Positions 15,174 to 19,302 of a DNA stretch of 39,739 bases are shown in pieces. Both the position numbers and the translations under genes were made by a program. Origin of the DNA: an uncultured SAR86 cluster bacterium (GTDB lineage: Bacteria; Pseudomonadota; Gammaproteobacteria; Magnimaribacterales; D2472); the NCBI GenBank assembly GCA_902623685.1, contig CACNUQ010000011.1:1-39739 (forward strand). Direction: 5' to 3'. Numbering within the stretch: the stretch's first letter is position 1; the number at the start of each line of letters is the position of its first letter. Below the pieces are notes generated by a model, which searched no databases, was not told where the DNA came from, and saw only the letters and a program-made list of their open reading frames with translations.

Positions 15174-15250
15174 GGCTATGTAGCTCAGATGGTTAGAGCA
15201 CAGCACTCATAACGCTGGGGTCGGTGGTTCAATTCCACCCATAGCCACCA
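15174..15250 (+). tRNA. tRNA-Met elongator (anticodon CAT)
   Basis: 77 nt with encoded CCA. Acceptor GGCTATG pairs with CATAGCC, discriminator A; the loop CTCATAA gives anticodon CAT. The acceptor resembles E. coli elongator tRNA-Met, and a Watson-Crick 1-72 pair rules out an initiator; the C4-G69/C5-G68 pairs of tRNA-Ile2 are absent. The anticodon stem is CAGCA/CGCTG, which leaves an A31-C39 mismatch next to the loop. Confidence 0.93.
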
Positions 15251-15320: not shown

Positions 15321-15554
15321 CTATTCTTTCTTTAAAAATATTAAAATTATTATTAAAGATACTAGTGCTAACAAAGCATCTTCGCCAAGCATATTCAAAA
15401 TATCTGTGACATTTCTGTATACATCGCCAACAAATGGAGTGGTAGGCCCAAAAATAATACCCAGCAACAGAGAAACAGCTACAAGAGGTAACAATAATTT
15501 TAATAATTTATTAAAAAAAGCAGTGAGTTTAATAAGAGAATTATTAAGATTCAT
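15321..15554 (-). CDS. Small two-helix membrane protein, second of a pair
   Basis: 77 aa; not a family I recognise. A lysine-bearing N-terminus is followed by hydrophobic helix 18-36 (LKLLLPLVAVSLLLGIIFG), a polar middle FVGDVYRNVTDILNMLGED (41-59), and helix 60-74 ending in KKE. The middle segment DVxxNVTxI is shared with the neighbouring 72-aa protein (DVIGNITSL), and the helix order is the same, so the two look like paralogues. Its ATG begins four bases past the T-run of an intrinsic terminator and has no Shine-Dalgarno, so expression probably needs read-through from the upstream gene. The shared pattern and clean frame argue that it is real. Confidence 0.6.
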   Translation of the reverse strand: MNLNNSLIKLTAFFNKLLKLLLPLVAVSLLLGIIFGPTTPFVGDVYRNVTDILNMLGEDALLALVSLIIILIFLKKE

Positions 15555-15610: not shown

Positions 15611-15829
15611 TTATCTGTTTAGCAAGCTGTATAGAACTGCTAATACAAGTAGCCCTACAACACCATTAGAAGCTAAAGACTCGACCAATGATGTAATATT
15701 TCCAATCACATCTAGTCCTAACATATCACCGAAAGCAAGGCTTCCAACAATACCAAGTCCCAAGATACCAATGATAACGCTAGTTAAATTACTAACTAGG
15801 TCGCTTAACATTCTAAATGCATTATCCAT
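15611..15829 (-). CDS. Small two-helix membrane protein, first of a pair
   Basis: 72 aa; function unknown. Layout: an amphipathic N-terminus (MDNAFRMLSDLVSNL), hydrophobic helix about 16-33 rich in glycine (SVIIGILGLGIVGSLAFG), a conserved-looking LDVIGNITSLVESL middle (39-52), and a second helix about 55-70 (NGVVGLLVLAVLYSLL). It shares DVxxN[IV]Tx[IL] and topology with the adjacent 77-aa product. It has the strongest ribosome site seen in the window, AGGGGG at 15840-15835, five bases before the ATG, and ends in a strong terminator, which together suggest high expression from its own transcript. Glycine-rich paired helices suggest a membrane oligomer, but this is only a guess. Confidence 0.75.
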   Translation of the reverse strand: MDNAFRMLSDLVSNLTSVIIGILGLGIVGSLAFGDMLGLDVIGNITSLVESLASNGVVGLLVLAVLYSLLNR

Positions 15830-15999: not shown

Positions 16000-18087
16000 T
16001 TAGATATCTAACGCTTTTTTAGAAAGTTTCATCTTTCCTCGGTCAAAACCTATCAACTTAACCTTGATAATATCTCCTTCACTTAGGACATCAGAAACAT
16101 TTTCAACTCTCTCTGAAGAAATTTCAGAAACATGTAATAGCCCATCTTTACCTGGCAAAATATTTACAAAAGCACCAAAATCTACAATCTTAACAACCTT
16201 ACCTTCATATACTTTATTTAGTTCAGGATCTTCTATTATGCCTTCAATGATTTCAAGCGCCGCATTCATAATAGATTGTGTTTCTCCAAATATGGTGACG
16301 ACTCCATTATCATCTATGTCAACTGATGCTCCGGTATCGGCTTGCATGCCTTTTATAACTGCTCCGCCCTTTCCAATAATTTCTTTAATCTTATCCTGAT
16401 CTACAGTGATCTTTTTCATTGCAGGGGTGTTATCTGACAATTCTTTTGGCGCGGAAATAACTTCGTTCATTTTGTCTAAAATATGCATGCGTGCATTTTT
16501 TGCTTTCTTTAAAGCAGACTCCATAATTTCAGATGTGATGCCTTGAACTTTTATATCCATTTGCAGTGCAGTGACGCCCTCTTTAGTACCAGCCACCTTA
16601 AAGTCCATATCACCAAGATGATCCTCGTCACCAAGAATGTCTGTTAAAACAGCAAAACTGTTTTCTTCTTTAATCAAGCCCATTGCTATTCCAGCAACTG
16701 GATTAGTGATGGGTACACCAGCATCCATCAACGAAAGAGAAGTTCCGCAGACTGAGGCCATTGAGCTTGATCCATTTGATTCTGTGATTTCTGAAACAAC
16801 CCTAATGGTATAACCAAATTCTTCAGAGTCAGGAAGAACAGCTTTGATTGCTCTTTTTGCAAGATTTCCATGGCCAATCTCTCTTCTCTTAGGACCTAAT
16901 GGCATACCAATTTCGCCAACGCTATATGCAGGAAAATTATAATGCAGCATGAAGGTATTAGATTCTTCGCCATTCAGCCCTTCTATTCTTTGAGCATCTC
17001 TTGTTGACCCAAGAGTGGCTGCAACTAATGCTTGTGTTTCTCCACGCGTAAATAAAGACGATCCGTGAACGCTTGGAAGGACATCAGTTTCAATATAGAT
17101 TGGTCTAACAGTATCTAAATCTCTTCCATCTATTCGCGGCTCATTTGCTAAAATGCTTTTTCTAACAACATCTTTTTCTACCAATTTGAAGGCATTCATT
17201 AATTTGCCTCTCTCTAAATCATCTAATTCATCATGAGCTTCATTTATTTTGACCCTTACAGCATTGATTGCTTCACCTCTACTTGCCTTATCCGCAATTT
17301 TAAATGCACTTGCTATTTCGTCTGTAAAAGAATCTGCAATCTTATTCTTAAATTCAGCTGTTCGCTCATCTTCAGAAAAATCCCATGGAGAAGGATCCAC
17401 TTTAGCTCTTAAATCTGAGCAGGCTTTAATAACTTTTTGCATTTCTTGATGACCATATAGCACTGAACCTAACATGAGATCTTCACTTAACTCATTTGCT
17501 TCGGATTCAACCATTAATACAGCATCTTCAGTTCCCGCTACGACCATATCCAACATAGATTCTTTCAACTCTTCTGGTGAGGGGTTTAAAACATAATTAC
17601 TATCGATAAAACCAACTCTTGCAGCTCCAAGTGGTCCCTGAAATGGAACCCCTGAAATTGAAAGCGCTGCAGAGGCACCAATCAGAGAAGCTATGTCAGG
17701 ATTAATATTTTTATCTGAAGATAATACTGTACAGAAAATCTGTATTTCATTTTTAAAATCCTCTGGGAATAGAGGTCTAATCGGTCTATCAATCAATCTG
17801 GAAGTTAATGTTTCTTGTTCAGTTGGTCTTGCCTCCCTTTTAAAATATCCGCCAGGAATTTTTCCAGCAGCGTAAAATTTCTCTTGATAGAAAACAGCTA
17901 ATGGAAAAAAATCTTTATAAGGATCAGCTTCCTTTCTGGCGACCATAGTTGTCAACACTACTAAATTATCAATTGTAACAATGATGCTTGATGTAGCCTG
18001 TCTTGCTATTTTGCCAGTTTCGATTTTGACAGTTTTATTTCCGTATTCGAATTCTACAGACTGAGTATTTAATTTATTTTCTTCCAC
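16000..18087 (-). CDS. pnp: Polynucleotide phosphorylase
   Basis: Phosphorolytic 3'-5' exoribonuclease and RNA-tailing enzyme, usually part of the degradosome (695 aa). Two RNase PH domains are visible; the second contains FTRGETQALV and GEIGMPLGPKRREIGHGNLAKRA, the phosphate and active-site region. The KH domain KITVDQDKIKEIIGKGG begins near residue 553, and the S1 domain VVKIVDFGAFVNILPGKDGLLHVSEIS ends the protein. The start is GTG with AAGGA upstream, 12 bp after rpsO, the normal rpsO-pnp pairing. No intrinsic terminator separates them. Confidence 0.97.
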   Translation of the reverse strand: MEENKLNTQSVEFEYGNKTVKIETGKIARQATSSIIVTIDNLVVLTTMVARKEADPYKDFFPLAVFYQEKFYAAGKIPGGYFKREARPTEQETLTSRLIDRPIRPLFPEDFKNEIQIFCTVLSSDKNINPDIASLIGASAALSISGVPFQGPLGAARVGFIDSNYVLNPSPEELKESMLDMVVAGTEDAVLMVESEANELSEDLMLGSVLYGHQEMQKVIKACSDLRAKVDPSPWDFSEDERTAEFKNKIADSFTDEIASAFKIADKASRGEAINAVRVKINEAHDELDDLERGKLMNAFKLVEKDVVRKSILANEPRIDGRDLDTVRPIYIETDVLPSVHGSSLFTRGETQALVAATLGSTRDAQRIEGLNGEESNTFMLHYNFPAYSVGEIGMPLGPKRREIGHGNLAKRAIKAVLPDSEEFGYTIRVVSEITESNGSSSMASVCGTSLSLMDAGVPITNPVAGIAMGLIKEENSFAVLTDILGDEDHLGDMDFKVAGTKEGVTALQMDIKVQGITSEIMESALKKAKNARMHILDKMNEVISAPKELSDNTPAMKKITVDQDKIKEIIGKGGAVIKGMQADTGASVDIDDNGVVTIFGETQSIMNAALEIIEGIIEDPELNKVYEGKVVKIVDFGAFVNILPGKDGLLHVSEISSERVENVSDVLSEGDIIKVKLIGFDRGKMKLSKKALDI

Positions 18088-18099
18088 GATTTTCCTTAT

Positions 18100-18369
18100 T
18101 TACCCTCTTAATTTAAGGGATTTGATTATGTCTTGATAACTTTCAAGATTTTTTCTTTTTAAATAAGCTAAAAGCTTTCTTCTTAAGTTAACCATTCTTA
18201 TAAGACCTGTTCTTGAATGATGGTCTTTTTTGTGAGTTTTAAAATGAGATTGTAATTTATTTATATTTTCTGTGAGAAGAGCTATTTGCACCTCAGGTGA
18301 GCCAGTATCAGTGTCACTATTTTGAAACTTTTTAACAATTTTATTTTTTTCTTCTTTTAGTAGAGCCAT
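18100..18369 (-). CDS. rpsO: Ribosomal protein uS15
   Basis: Binds the 16S central domain early in 30S assembly. 89 aa from the ATG at 18369, the same length as E. coli S15, with [51 protein letters not shown] matching throughout in shorter blocks. The open frame continues 16 codons upstream (MRGLRRF...), but that part overlaps a leader pseudoknot, and AAGGAG 9 nt before the inner ATG fixes the true start. Probably regulated by S15 itself through that pseudoknot. Confidence 0.96.
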
Positions 18370-18378
18370 AAGTATTTT

Positions 18379-18432
18379 CTCCTTGGATATGCTCCTAAAT
18401 CTTCTCAAACCTCGCATATCTAAAGTTTGAGA
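18379..18432 (-). promoter_or_regulatory. Putative S15 autoregulatory mRNA pseudoknot
   Basis: In the rpsO leader, read on the minus strand, two interlocked stems are perfect: TCTCAAAC (18432-18425) with GTTTGAGA (18410-18403), and GATATGC (18420-18414) with GCATATC (18392-18386). The loops are TTTA, GAG and a 10-nt AGATTTAGGA. The second stem ends one base from AAGGAG (18384-18379). This H-type arrangement is like the E. coli S15 operator, where S15 traps the ribosome on a pseudoknot. The pairing is seen directly; ligand binding is inferred. Confidence 0.7.
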
Positions 18433-18459
18433 TGATGTAGCTTATTACTTATTTACCTA

Positions 18460-19302
18460 TTAAACAAGGTATTCATGCTTGAAGCCATTGCTAGTATTTT
18501 TTCCTATTGCGATAAATTGATTTGAGGCATCATAAACTCTCAACAAATTTTCATGATCAAGGTTGATTTCAATTGGCCTGCCATTAAGAAATGCTCTGCT
18601 TTCTTTTTCATTTAGTTGAATAAAATCTAAATCCTCAAAAGCATTTTCCAATGATATAAGATTTTCTAAACTTAATTCGTCTAATGAGAACGAATCAGAT
18701 AGTAAAAATTTTTCCTGGCTTGTTCTAACTAATTTTGATAGATTGGCACCACAACCAAGCTTTAACCCAAAATCTCTTGCAATAGATCTAATATAAGTGC
18801 CCTTTGAGCAATTGATATCAAATGAAACTTTCGGCATTTCTATCGAAATATTATTTATATTTTTGATAAATATCTTTCTTGCAGCTTTTTCAATCTTGAT
18901 TCCATCTCTTGCATACCTATATAGAGGTTTGCCTTTATGCTTAAGTGCTGAGTAATTTGGAGGGAATTGGTCACTCTCGCCCAAAAAACTTAGCAAGGCT
19001 TTTTTAGCTTGAAAATCATTAATATTGACATCTTTGCAAGAAATAACCTCTCCTTCAGCATCGTCAGTATTTGTTTGAATGCCAAGTGTTACCTCAGCTC
19101 GATATGACTTTTCACTTTGCAAAAGAAGAGATGCAAATTTAGTTGCTCTATTTATAGCAATTATCAAAAGACCAGTTGCCATTGGATCTAAAGTGCCCAA
19201 ATGTCCAACCCTATCAAGATTAAATTGTTTTTTTATTATTTGAACAACTCTTGATGAAGTTATGCCAGAATCTTTATTAACTAATAGAAATCCACTAATC
19301 AC
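18460..19302 (-). CDS. truB: tRNA pseudouridine-55 synthase
   Basis: Converts U55 to pseudouridine in the T loop of most tRNAs (280 aa). The catalytic Asp39 lies in GHLGTLDPMATGLL, preceded by the N-terminal GFLLVNKDSGITSS motif. SYRAEVTLGIQTNTDDAEGE and NCSKGTYIRSIARDFG (the RNA-binding TYIRS motif) follow. The C-terminal PUA-like part is short. The start is GTG, overlapping the rbfA stop by 8 nt (GTGATTAG). Standard position between rbfA and rpsO. Confidence 0.96.
   Translation of the reverse strand: MISGFLLVNKDSGITSSRVVQIIKKQFNLDRVGHLGTLDPMATGLLIIAINRATKFASLLLQSEKSYRAEVTLGIQTNTDDAEGEVISCKDVNINDFQAKKALLSFLGESDQFPPNYSALKHKGKPLYRYARDGIKIEKAARKIFIKNINNISIEMPKVSFDINCSKGTYIRSIARDFGLKLGCGANLSKLVRTSQEKFLLSDSFSLDELSLENLISLENAFEDLDFIQLNEKESRAFLNGRPIEINLDHENLLRVYDASNQFIAIGKNTSNGFKHEYLV

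Follow-up and report, generated by a model that had tools for sequence, protein, structure and literature searches.

Some regulatory RNAs are said to differ completely among lineages, a standard example being the leaders of rpsO, which encodes ribosomal protein S15. In the E. coli leader (Rfam RF00114), the far strand of stem 2 of an H-type pseudoknot lies in codons 2–4, and the Shine-Dalgarno (SD) sequence and the AUG are in a loop (PMC3858243, PMC10931766). E. coli S15 reads the U-G/C-G motif of stem 1 through His42, Asp49 and Ser52, and its Arg58 contacts the loop-1 base A-46 (PMC8470358). The pseudoknot of Mycobacterium smegmatis and M. tuberculosis is located upstream of the start site (PMC10931766) and has a U·G/C-G motif, a loop-1 A and a 10-nt loop between stems 1 and 2 (PMC8470358, PMC10931766). 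The motif is called crucial for mycobacterial rpsO (PMC10931766), and disruption of the pseudoknot abolished repression in M. smegmatis (PMC8470358). The leaders of Thermus and Geobacillus form a three-helix junction that mimics helices h20-h21-h22 of 16S rRNA (PMC4684408, PMC10931766). Weak homologues of the actinobacterial RNA were reported in Gammaproteobacteria without the E. coli regulator, such as Pseudomonas (Slinger 2014, PMC4137082). The available text of this S15-leader literature (PMC4137082, PMC4684408, PMC7247131, PMC8470358, PMC10931766, PMC3858243, PMC6429828, PMC5100602) was not found to describe an S15 leader from SAR86.

The rpsO leader of the SAR86 window

The DNA analysed, a stretch of 39,739 nt referred to as the window, is from SAR86, an abundant marine lineage. 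Translations of its minus strand gave the gene order nusA, infB, rbfA, truB, rpsO and pnp, the names being presumed from general knowledge and that of pnp likewise from its translation. The closest named relatives of rpsO were SAR86 records, for example SAR86E with an S15 identity of 96%. The start codon of rpsO is the ATG at 18369–18367, 9 nt past the AAGGAG, and a start at 18417 in the list of open reading frames was rejected as a mechanical upstream start. Two small open reading frames with long hydrophobic stretches (15321–15554 and 15611–15829, minus strand; 77 and 72 aa) were observed between pnp and a tRNA gene at 15174–15247.

The rpsO-pnp spacer (18088–18099, minus strand) is 12 nt long and by eye has no terminator, whereas rpsO of E. 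coli (L283) is followed by a hairpin and a T-run. Because the spacer is this short and without a terminator of the E. coli type, S15 repression may extend to pnp, resulting in co-regulation of rpsO and pnp.

A scan for stems located two interlocked helices on the minus strand of the rpsO leader, exactly where the sequence-only reading had placed them: an 8-bp stem 1 (18432–18425 with 18410–18403) and a 7-bp stem 2. A single C separates stem 2 from the AAGGAG, again as described. No second perfect 8/7-bp interlocked pair with loops within the scanned ranges was present on either strand of the 39.7-kb window; of 20,000 dinucleotide-shuffled versions of the rpsO leader, 3 contained one.

The loops had been given as 4, 3 and 10 nt. 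These lengths were reproduced; however, the first two loops are probably not open. The presumed loops UUUA and GAG are complementary to each other and can form three extra pairs (U·G, U-A and U·G), extending stem 1 to 11 bp and leaving a single A in loop 1 and no nucleotide in loop 2. These hidden pairs were formed in the minimum free energy (MFE) fold of the window leader, and the hairpin energy was −11.3 kcal/mol with the extension compared to −6.6 kcal/mol without it, a gain of 4.7 kcal/mol. In the same nested fold, the far stem 2 strand was paired to the first codons and not to its knot partner, which counts against the S15 operator postulated below. The features are listed in Table 1.

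Table 1. Features of the rpsO region of the window
Feature	Position	Strand	Description	Basis
pnp	16000..18087	−	presumed polynucleotide phosphorylase; 12 nt 3' of rpsO	
rpsO	18100..18369	−	ribosomal protein S15, 89 aa	
Shine-Dalgarno sequence	18379..18384	−	AAGGAG	
Stem 2, 3' strand	18386..18392	−	GCAUAUC	covariation and stem scan
Loop 3	18393..18402	−	10 nt, stem 1 to far strand of stem 2	
Stem 1, 3' strand	18403..18413	−	11 nt (GAG + 8)	stem scan and MFE fold
U·G/C-G step	within 18410..18425	−	C18425-G18410, U18424·G18411	both pairs in 77/77
Stem 2, 5' strand	18414..18420	−	GAUAUGC	covariation and stem scan
Loop 1	18421	−	single A, positional counterpart of E. coli A-46	
Stem 1, 5' strand	18422..18432	−	11 nt (8 + UUU)	stem scan and MFE fold
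−10-like element	18439..18444	−	TAAGCT	consensus match only
−35-like element	18462..18467	−	TTGTTT, overlaps truB end	consensus match only

Conservation and covariation in the SAR86 family

A match to rpsO was found in 90 of the 107 genomes of the window's family, and all 90 leaders were retrieved, of which 89 were readable. The conserved core was present in 88 of these 89, and the 90th leader (L065), which has undetermined bases, showed the same core by eye. The only readable leader without the knot was L029, which corresponds by position to L152 of isolate D2474-A1-1 and retains the −10-like element; the absence is considered a natural loss. Leaders L066–L069, from the same genus, carry the knot.

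The 77 distinct cores were aligned with MAFFT on sequence alone (alignment A1). The proportion of paired cells was 85.4%, compared to 68.6 ± 0.9% after shuffling, and 218 cells were changed on both sides of a pair, compared to 85.8 ± 6.5, a number that none of 500 shuffles reached. When the partner was slid by 1–3 columns, paired cells fell to 27–40% and double changes to 19–51. This comparison among relatives was the decisive test of the pseudoknot. Both stems contributed to this covariation, which the sequence-only reading had put forward as its check. In stem 2, 96.8% of cells were paired over the 77 sequences with double changes at six of seven pairs; in the 8-bp stem 1, 75.1% were paired with double changes at seven of eight. 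There were 22 distinct versions of stem 2, and 21 of them kept at least six of seven pairs, with a U·U at the second pair in 12 of the 77 leaders. Exchange of partners between versions reduced the mean from 6.6 to 5.1 pairs; swapped combinations still gave at least six of seven pairs in 175 of 462 cases, which likewise counts against the postulated operator. The claim that the stems are perfect holds for the window but not for stem 1 across the family, as its middle pairs at columns 6/27 and 7/26 were unpaired in 26 and 40 of the 77 leaders, outside the window's genus. Columns 3/30 and 2/31 were unpaired in 45 and 32, respectively.

The pairs hidden in the presumed loops were conserved. U10·G23 was found in 77/77 distinct leaders and U11-A22 in 75/77, and columns 12 and 21 were paired in 77/77. 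The last of these pairs was U·G, U-A or C-G and never C·A; since column composition predicts just about two C·A, it is weak evidence when taken alone. Directly below U10·G23 is the equally invariant C9-G24 (77/77), and together they form a U·G/C-G step that occupies pairs three and four counted from the junction. A GU/GC step within the original 8-bp stem was also considered and rejected, as it is not conserved; the invariant step sits at the start of the extension. The second junction pair is U-A in the SAR86 window and mostly G-C elsewhere. The loop-1 base was A in 75 of the 77 leaders and G in two. Loop 3 ranged from 8 to 19 nt, and the distance from the end of stem 2 to the purine-GG-purine core of the SD sequence was 0, 1 or 2 nt in 4, 44 and 29 leaders, respectively. 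The four residues of E. coli S15 that contact the motif and loop-1 A, His42, Asp49, Ser52 and Arg58, were all present in each of the 28 SAR86 S15 proteins examined.

A promoter-like element, TTGTTT-N17-T(A/T)NNNT, was present in 80 of the 89 family leaders, and in 79 of those 80 it lay 3–6 nt before column 1 of A1. Transcription in the window probably starts 7 nt past the putative −10 element, at 18432, the 5' end of stem 1. The conservation of the element is partly that of the TruB protein, because the −35 element overlaps the end of truB.

Related leaders outside SAR86

A strict descriptor called for CU followed by two paired bases, then A and a stem 2 strand, then two paired bases and GG, with 6 bp or more in stem 2. 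It matched 70 of the 89 SAR86 leaders and 11 of 1780 shuffles. By eye, the 19 leaders missed could be ascribed to the U·U in stem 2, a loop-1 G, bulges or, for L029, true absence. Placement of the far strand in codons 2–4, as in E. coli, was not found among the SAR86 matches, all 70 of which had it upstream of the start codon (upstream type). In the other families of the SAR86 order, the descriptor matched 0 of 22 leaders; many of the rpsO genes at L033–L050, from such families, apparently use TTG as start codon and lack the knot.

Under the same descriptor, the E. coli leader L283 was read as gatcgctga, A, TTAGAGA, tcggcg, with the same step, the same A and no loop 2. A survey of the class gave six matches (four upstream, two with the far strand in the coding region) in 72 readable of 87 leaders, compared to 2 in 1440 shuffles; two of the matches, L246 and L257, appear to be fortuitous. 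Named loci outside SAR86 gave three matches in 36 readable of 38, compared to 3 in 720 shuffles, and L158 and L159 matched only when a looser stem 2 was allowed. The upstream type was found in the named loci Marinimicrobium L155 (Cellvibrionales in the NCBI taxonomy) and Porticoccaceae L163, and the coding type in E. coli L283, Glaciecola L156 and the class leaders L234 and L251. In the order of genome G400, another gammaproteobacterial order, 55 of 56 leaders were retrieved and 52 were readable, of which 38 matched compared to 2 of 1040 shuffles. In all 38, stem 2 precedes the start codon. Across L290–L344 of this order the knot was strikingly uniform, its usual form being CUGU A AAUAUGC ACGG ... 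GCAUAUU. The weak Pseudomonas homologues of Slinger 2014 are probably of this same upstream type.

Model R2, trained on another gammaproteobacterial order, comprised 33 leaders with no SAR86 row. The step, the A and the far stem 2 strand were the criteria for choosing the rows of alignment A2, so their invariance there is by construction; the outer pairs of stem 1 also covary in A2, and that covariation does not come from row selection. When R2 was run on the window's genome, the rpsO leader ranked first (23.9 bits, E 0.011), followed by a place with 13.3 bits, and its alignment was in register for the step and the A as well as for the two stem 2 strands. Among 30 SAR86-family sources R2 reached 12, namely all 11 of the window's genus and a partial match in L025, and missed 18, one of them knot-less, which comprise every other genus save the partial L025. 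For those other genera, the relationship to leaders outside SAR86 rests on geometry and on A1. R2 also missed E. coli L283.

Across 369 genomes of the class, R2 gave four matches at E ≤ 0.01, in G492, G400 and G137 just upstream of rpsO and in G383 on a different contig from rpsO; the window's genome, with E 0.011, falls outside these four. G492 and G137 were in the training set of R2 and G400 was not. Model R1, built from SAR86, matched one place in the window's genome. At E ≤ 0.05 with stricter filters it gave six matches across the 369 genomes, two in SAR86 and four weak ones in G168 and G373, both on other contigs than rpsO, and in G148 and G202.

RF00114 scored 26.7 bits on the window leader when the coding part was included, under the Rfam cut-off of 39.5, and gave no match on the leader without it. 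The cut-off was passed in the relatives L122 and L135 and in 2 of 19 SAR86 loci (L028 and L071). These matches span the rpsO coding start, and knot-less L152 still scored 23.5 bits, so the score does not single out the knot and was rejected as proof of membership. The MFE fold of the window contains an equivalent of the second RF00114 hairpin, which pairs the SD sequence with early codons, but by eye most relatives have different codons there. The cut-off was passed by 12 of 20 scanned leaders of G400's order, in which stem 2 is upstream of the SD sequence; thus, Rfam already covers part of that order.

Regulatory reading and relation to known S15 operators

The SAR86 pseudoknot is postulated to be an S15 autoregulatory operator, a divergent form of the S15 leader pseudoknot with the U·G/C-G step, with a probability of roughly 80%. 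It was placed in this known class because the hidden step and the loop-1 A match the determinants of E. coli S15. Against the operator count the SAR86 genera and the E. coli leader L283 that R2 missed, the low RF00114 score, the weakly paired columns of stem 1 and the U·U of stem 2, the leaders without the knot in L029 and in the order's other families, and the U-A at the second junction pair. The sequence-only reading, which could match the leader to no known class, thus needs correction on that point, the more so as R2 ranks the site first in its genome, while its proposal of S15 autoregulation was probably right.

In the proposed mechanism, the rpsO mRNA would probably begin at stem 1. The 11-bp stem 1 and stem 2 are predicted from conserved sequence and pairing to form the knot, with a single A in loop 1 and loop 2 absent, and the two stems could stack coaxially. 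Surplus S15, by analogy to E. coli and M. smegmatis, would grip the C-G/U·G step together with the loop-1 A, stabilizing the knot. The clamped knot would then either bar the 30S subunit or trap it in a dead-end complex; a block can be expected because stem 2 ends 0–2 nt before the SD core. With S15 bound at the junction, a rigid body of RNA and protein would abut the SD sequence. With S15 drawn off by 16S rRNA, the knot would melt and rpsO, perhaps with pnp, would be translated.

Of these two modes, occlusion of the ribosome-binding site appears likelier than entrapment of the E. coli type, by analogy with the upstream knot of mycobacteria, for which blocked ribosome binding and not entrapment was proposed (PMC10931766). 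In an E. coli-like mode, the 30S subunit would dock on the SD sequence and S15 would prevent positioning of the start codon. This is possible but rather doubtful: the SD sequence is unpaired in the SAR86 pseudoknot, and the folded E. coli knot is described as docking on the 30S platform and being melted there with the help of ribosomal protein S1 (PMC3858243), but the 0–2 nt left in 77/77 leaders offer scant room for an SD/anti-SD helix, and the coding start lies outside the SAR86 knot. The knot could also be an S15-binding structure of independent origin in this SAR86 family. That no leader of the order's other families matched, that R2 fails for most SAR86 genera and that S15-responsive RNAs are called frequent in sequence space in the title of a paper would all agree with convergence. 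It is nevertheless improbable, given the near-identical stem 2, the one-A loop 1, the absent loop 2 and the R2 match in register, which fit common descent with loss in the sister families.

A role without S15, as a constitutive 5'-terminal element that shields the mRNA from decay or offers ribosomal protein S1 a landing site, would suit the predicted start at stem 1, and pseudoknots are listed among high-affinity S1 targets in PMC10931766. However, such an element would need neither the invariant U·G/C-G step nor the loop-1 A nor a position in the rpsO leader, and R1 matched only once in the genome, all of which makes this role very improbable. Kinship among sequences can exceed a shuffle control without any RNA structure, but the slide control keeps relatedness and still lost most of the pairing (85.4% to 27–40%) and of the double changes (218 to 19–51), and 21 of 22 stem 2 versions kept six or more of seven pairs; chance or conservation of sequence alone is therefore given next to no probability.

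With the S15 operator as the preferred reading, the chances are about even for a broader view in which the gammaproteobacterial operator has kept its S15-reading half constant (stem 1 with the U·G/C-G step, the loop-1 A and the near stem 2 strand), while the far strand was relocated between codons 2–4 and a site next to the SD sequence, the mechanism switching with it if linked to the strand. If the mechanism does track the strand, a single relocation would have turned entrapment into exclusion, or the reverse, with the protein contact unchanged, and if the view is true SAR86 would be its tight extreme, with the knot 0–2 nt from the SD core. A leader that seemed unmatched shows an S15-reading core of the E. 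coli type once the hidden pairs are seen, with the far strand alone displaced, which suggests that some S15 leaders regarded as different are rearrangements of one operator. S15 autoregulation would likely be extended to SAR86. New here are the occurrence in SAR86, the number of upstream-type leaders counted and the hidden pairs, which link the leader to those of E. coli type.

With regard to the three-helix junctions of Thermus and Geobacillus, the conserved SAR86 pairs are accounted for by two interlocked helices. With the mycobacterial knots the SAR86 leader shares the upstream location, the U·G/C-G motif, the loop-1 A and, in the window, the 10-nt loop 3, whereas residue 58 of S15 is Leu in M. 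smegmatis (PMC8470358) and Arg in SAR86; mycobacteria belong to a distant phylum, and the likeness is one of published description. The knots of G400's order, Marinimicrobium and Porticoccaceae have the step and the loops of SAR86 and nearly the same stem 2 (AAUAUGC/GCAUAUU compared to GAUAUGC/GCAUAUC in the SAR86 window), its far strand likewise being before the SD sequence. They differ in the top of stem 1 (CUGU/ACGG compared to CUUU/GAGG in SAR86) and in the distance from stem 2 to the SD sequence, which by eye is 0 to roughly 40 nt. With the E. coli leader, the SAR86 leader has in common the H-type knot, the position of the step, the one-A loop 1 and the absence of loop 2, whereas its far strand is before the SD sequence. 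S15 leader pseudoknots are known already, and the SAR86 element is a variant of them.
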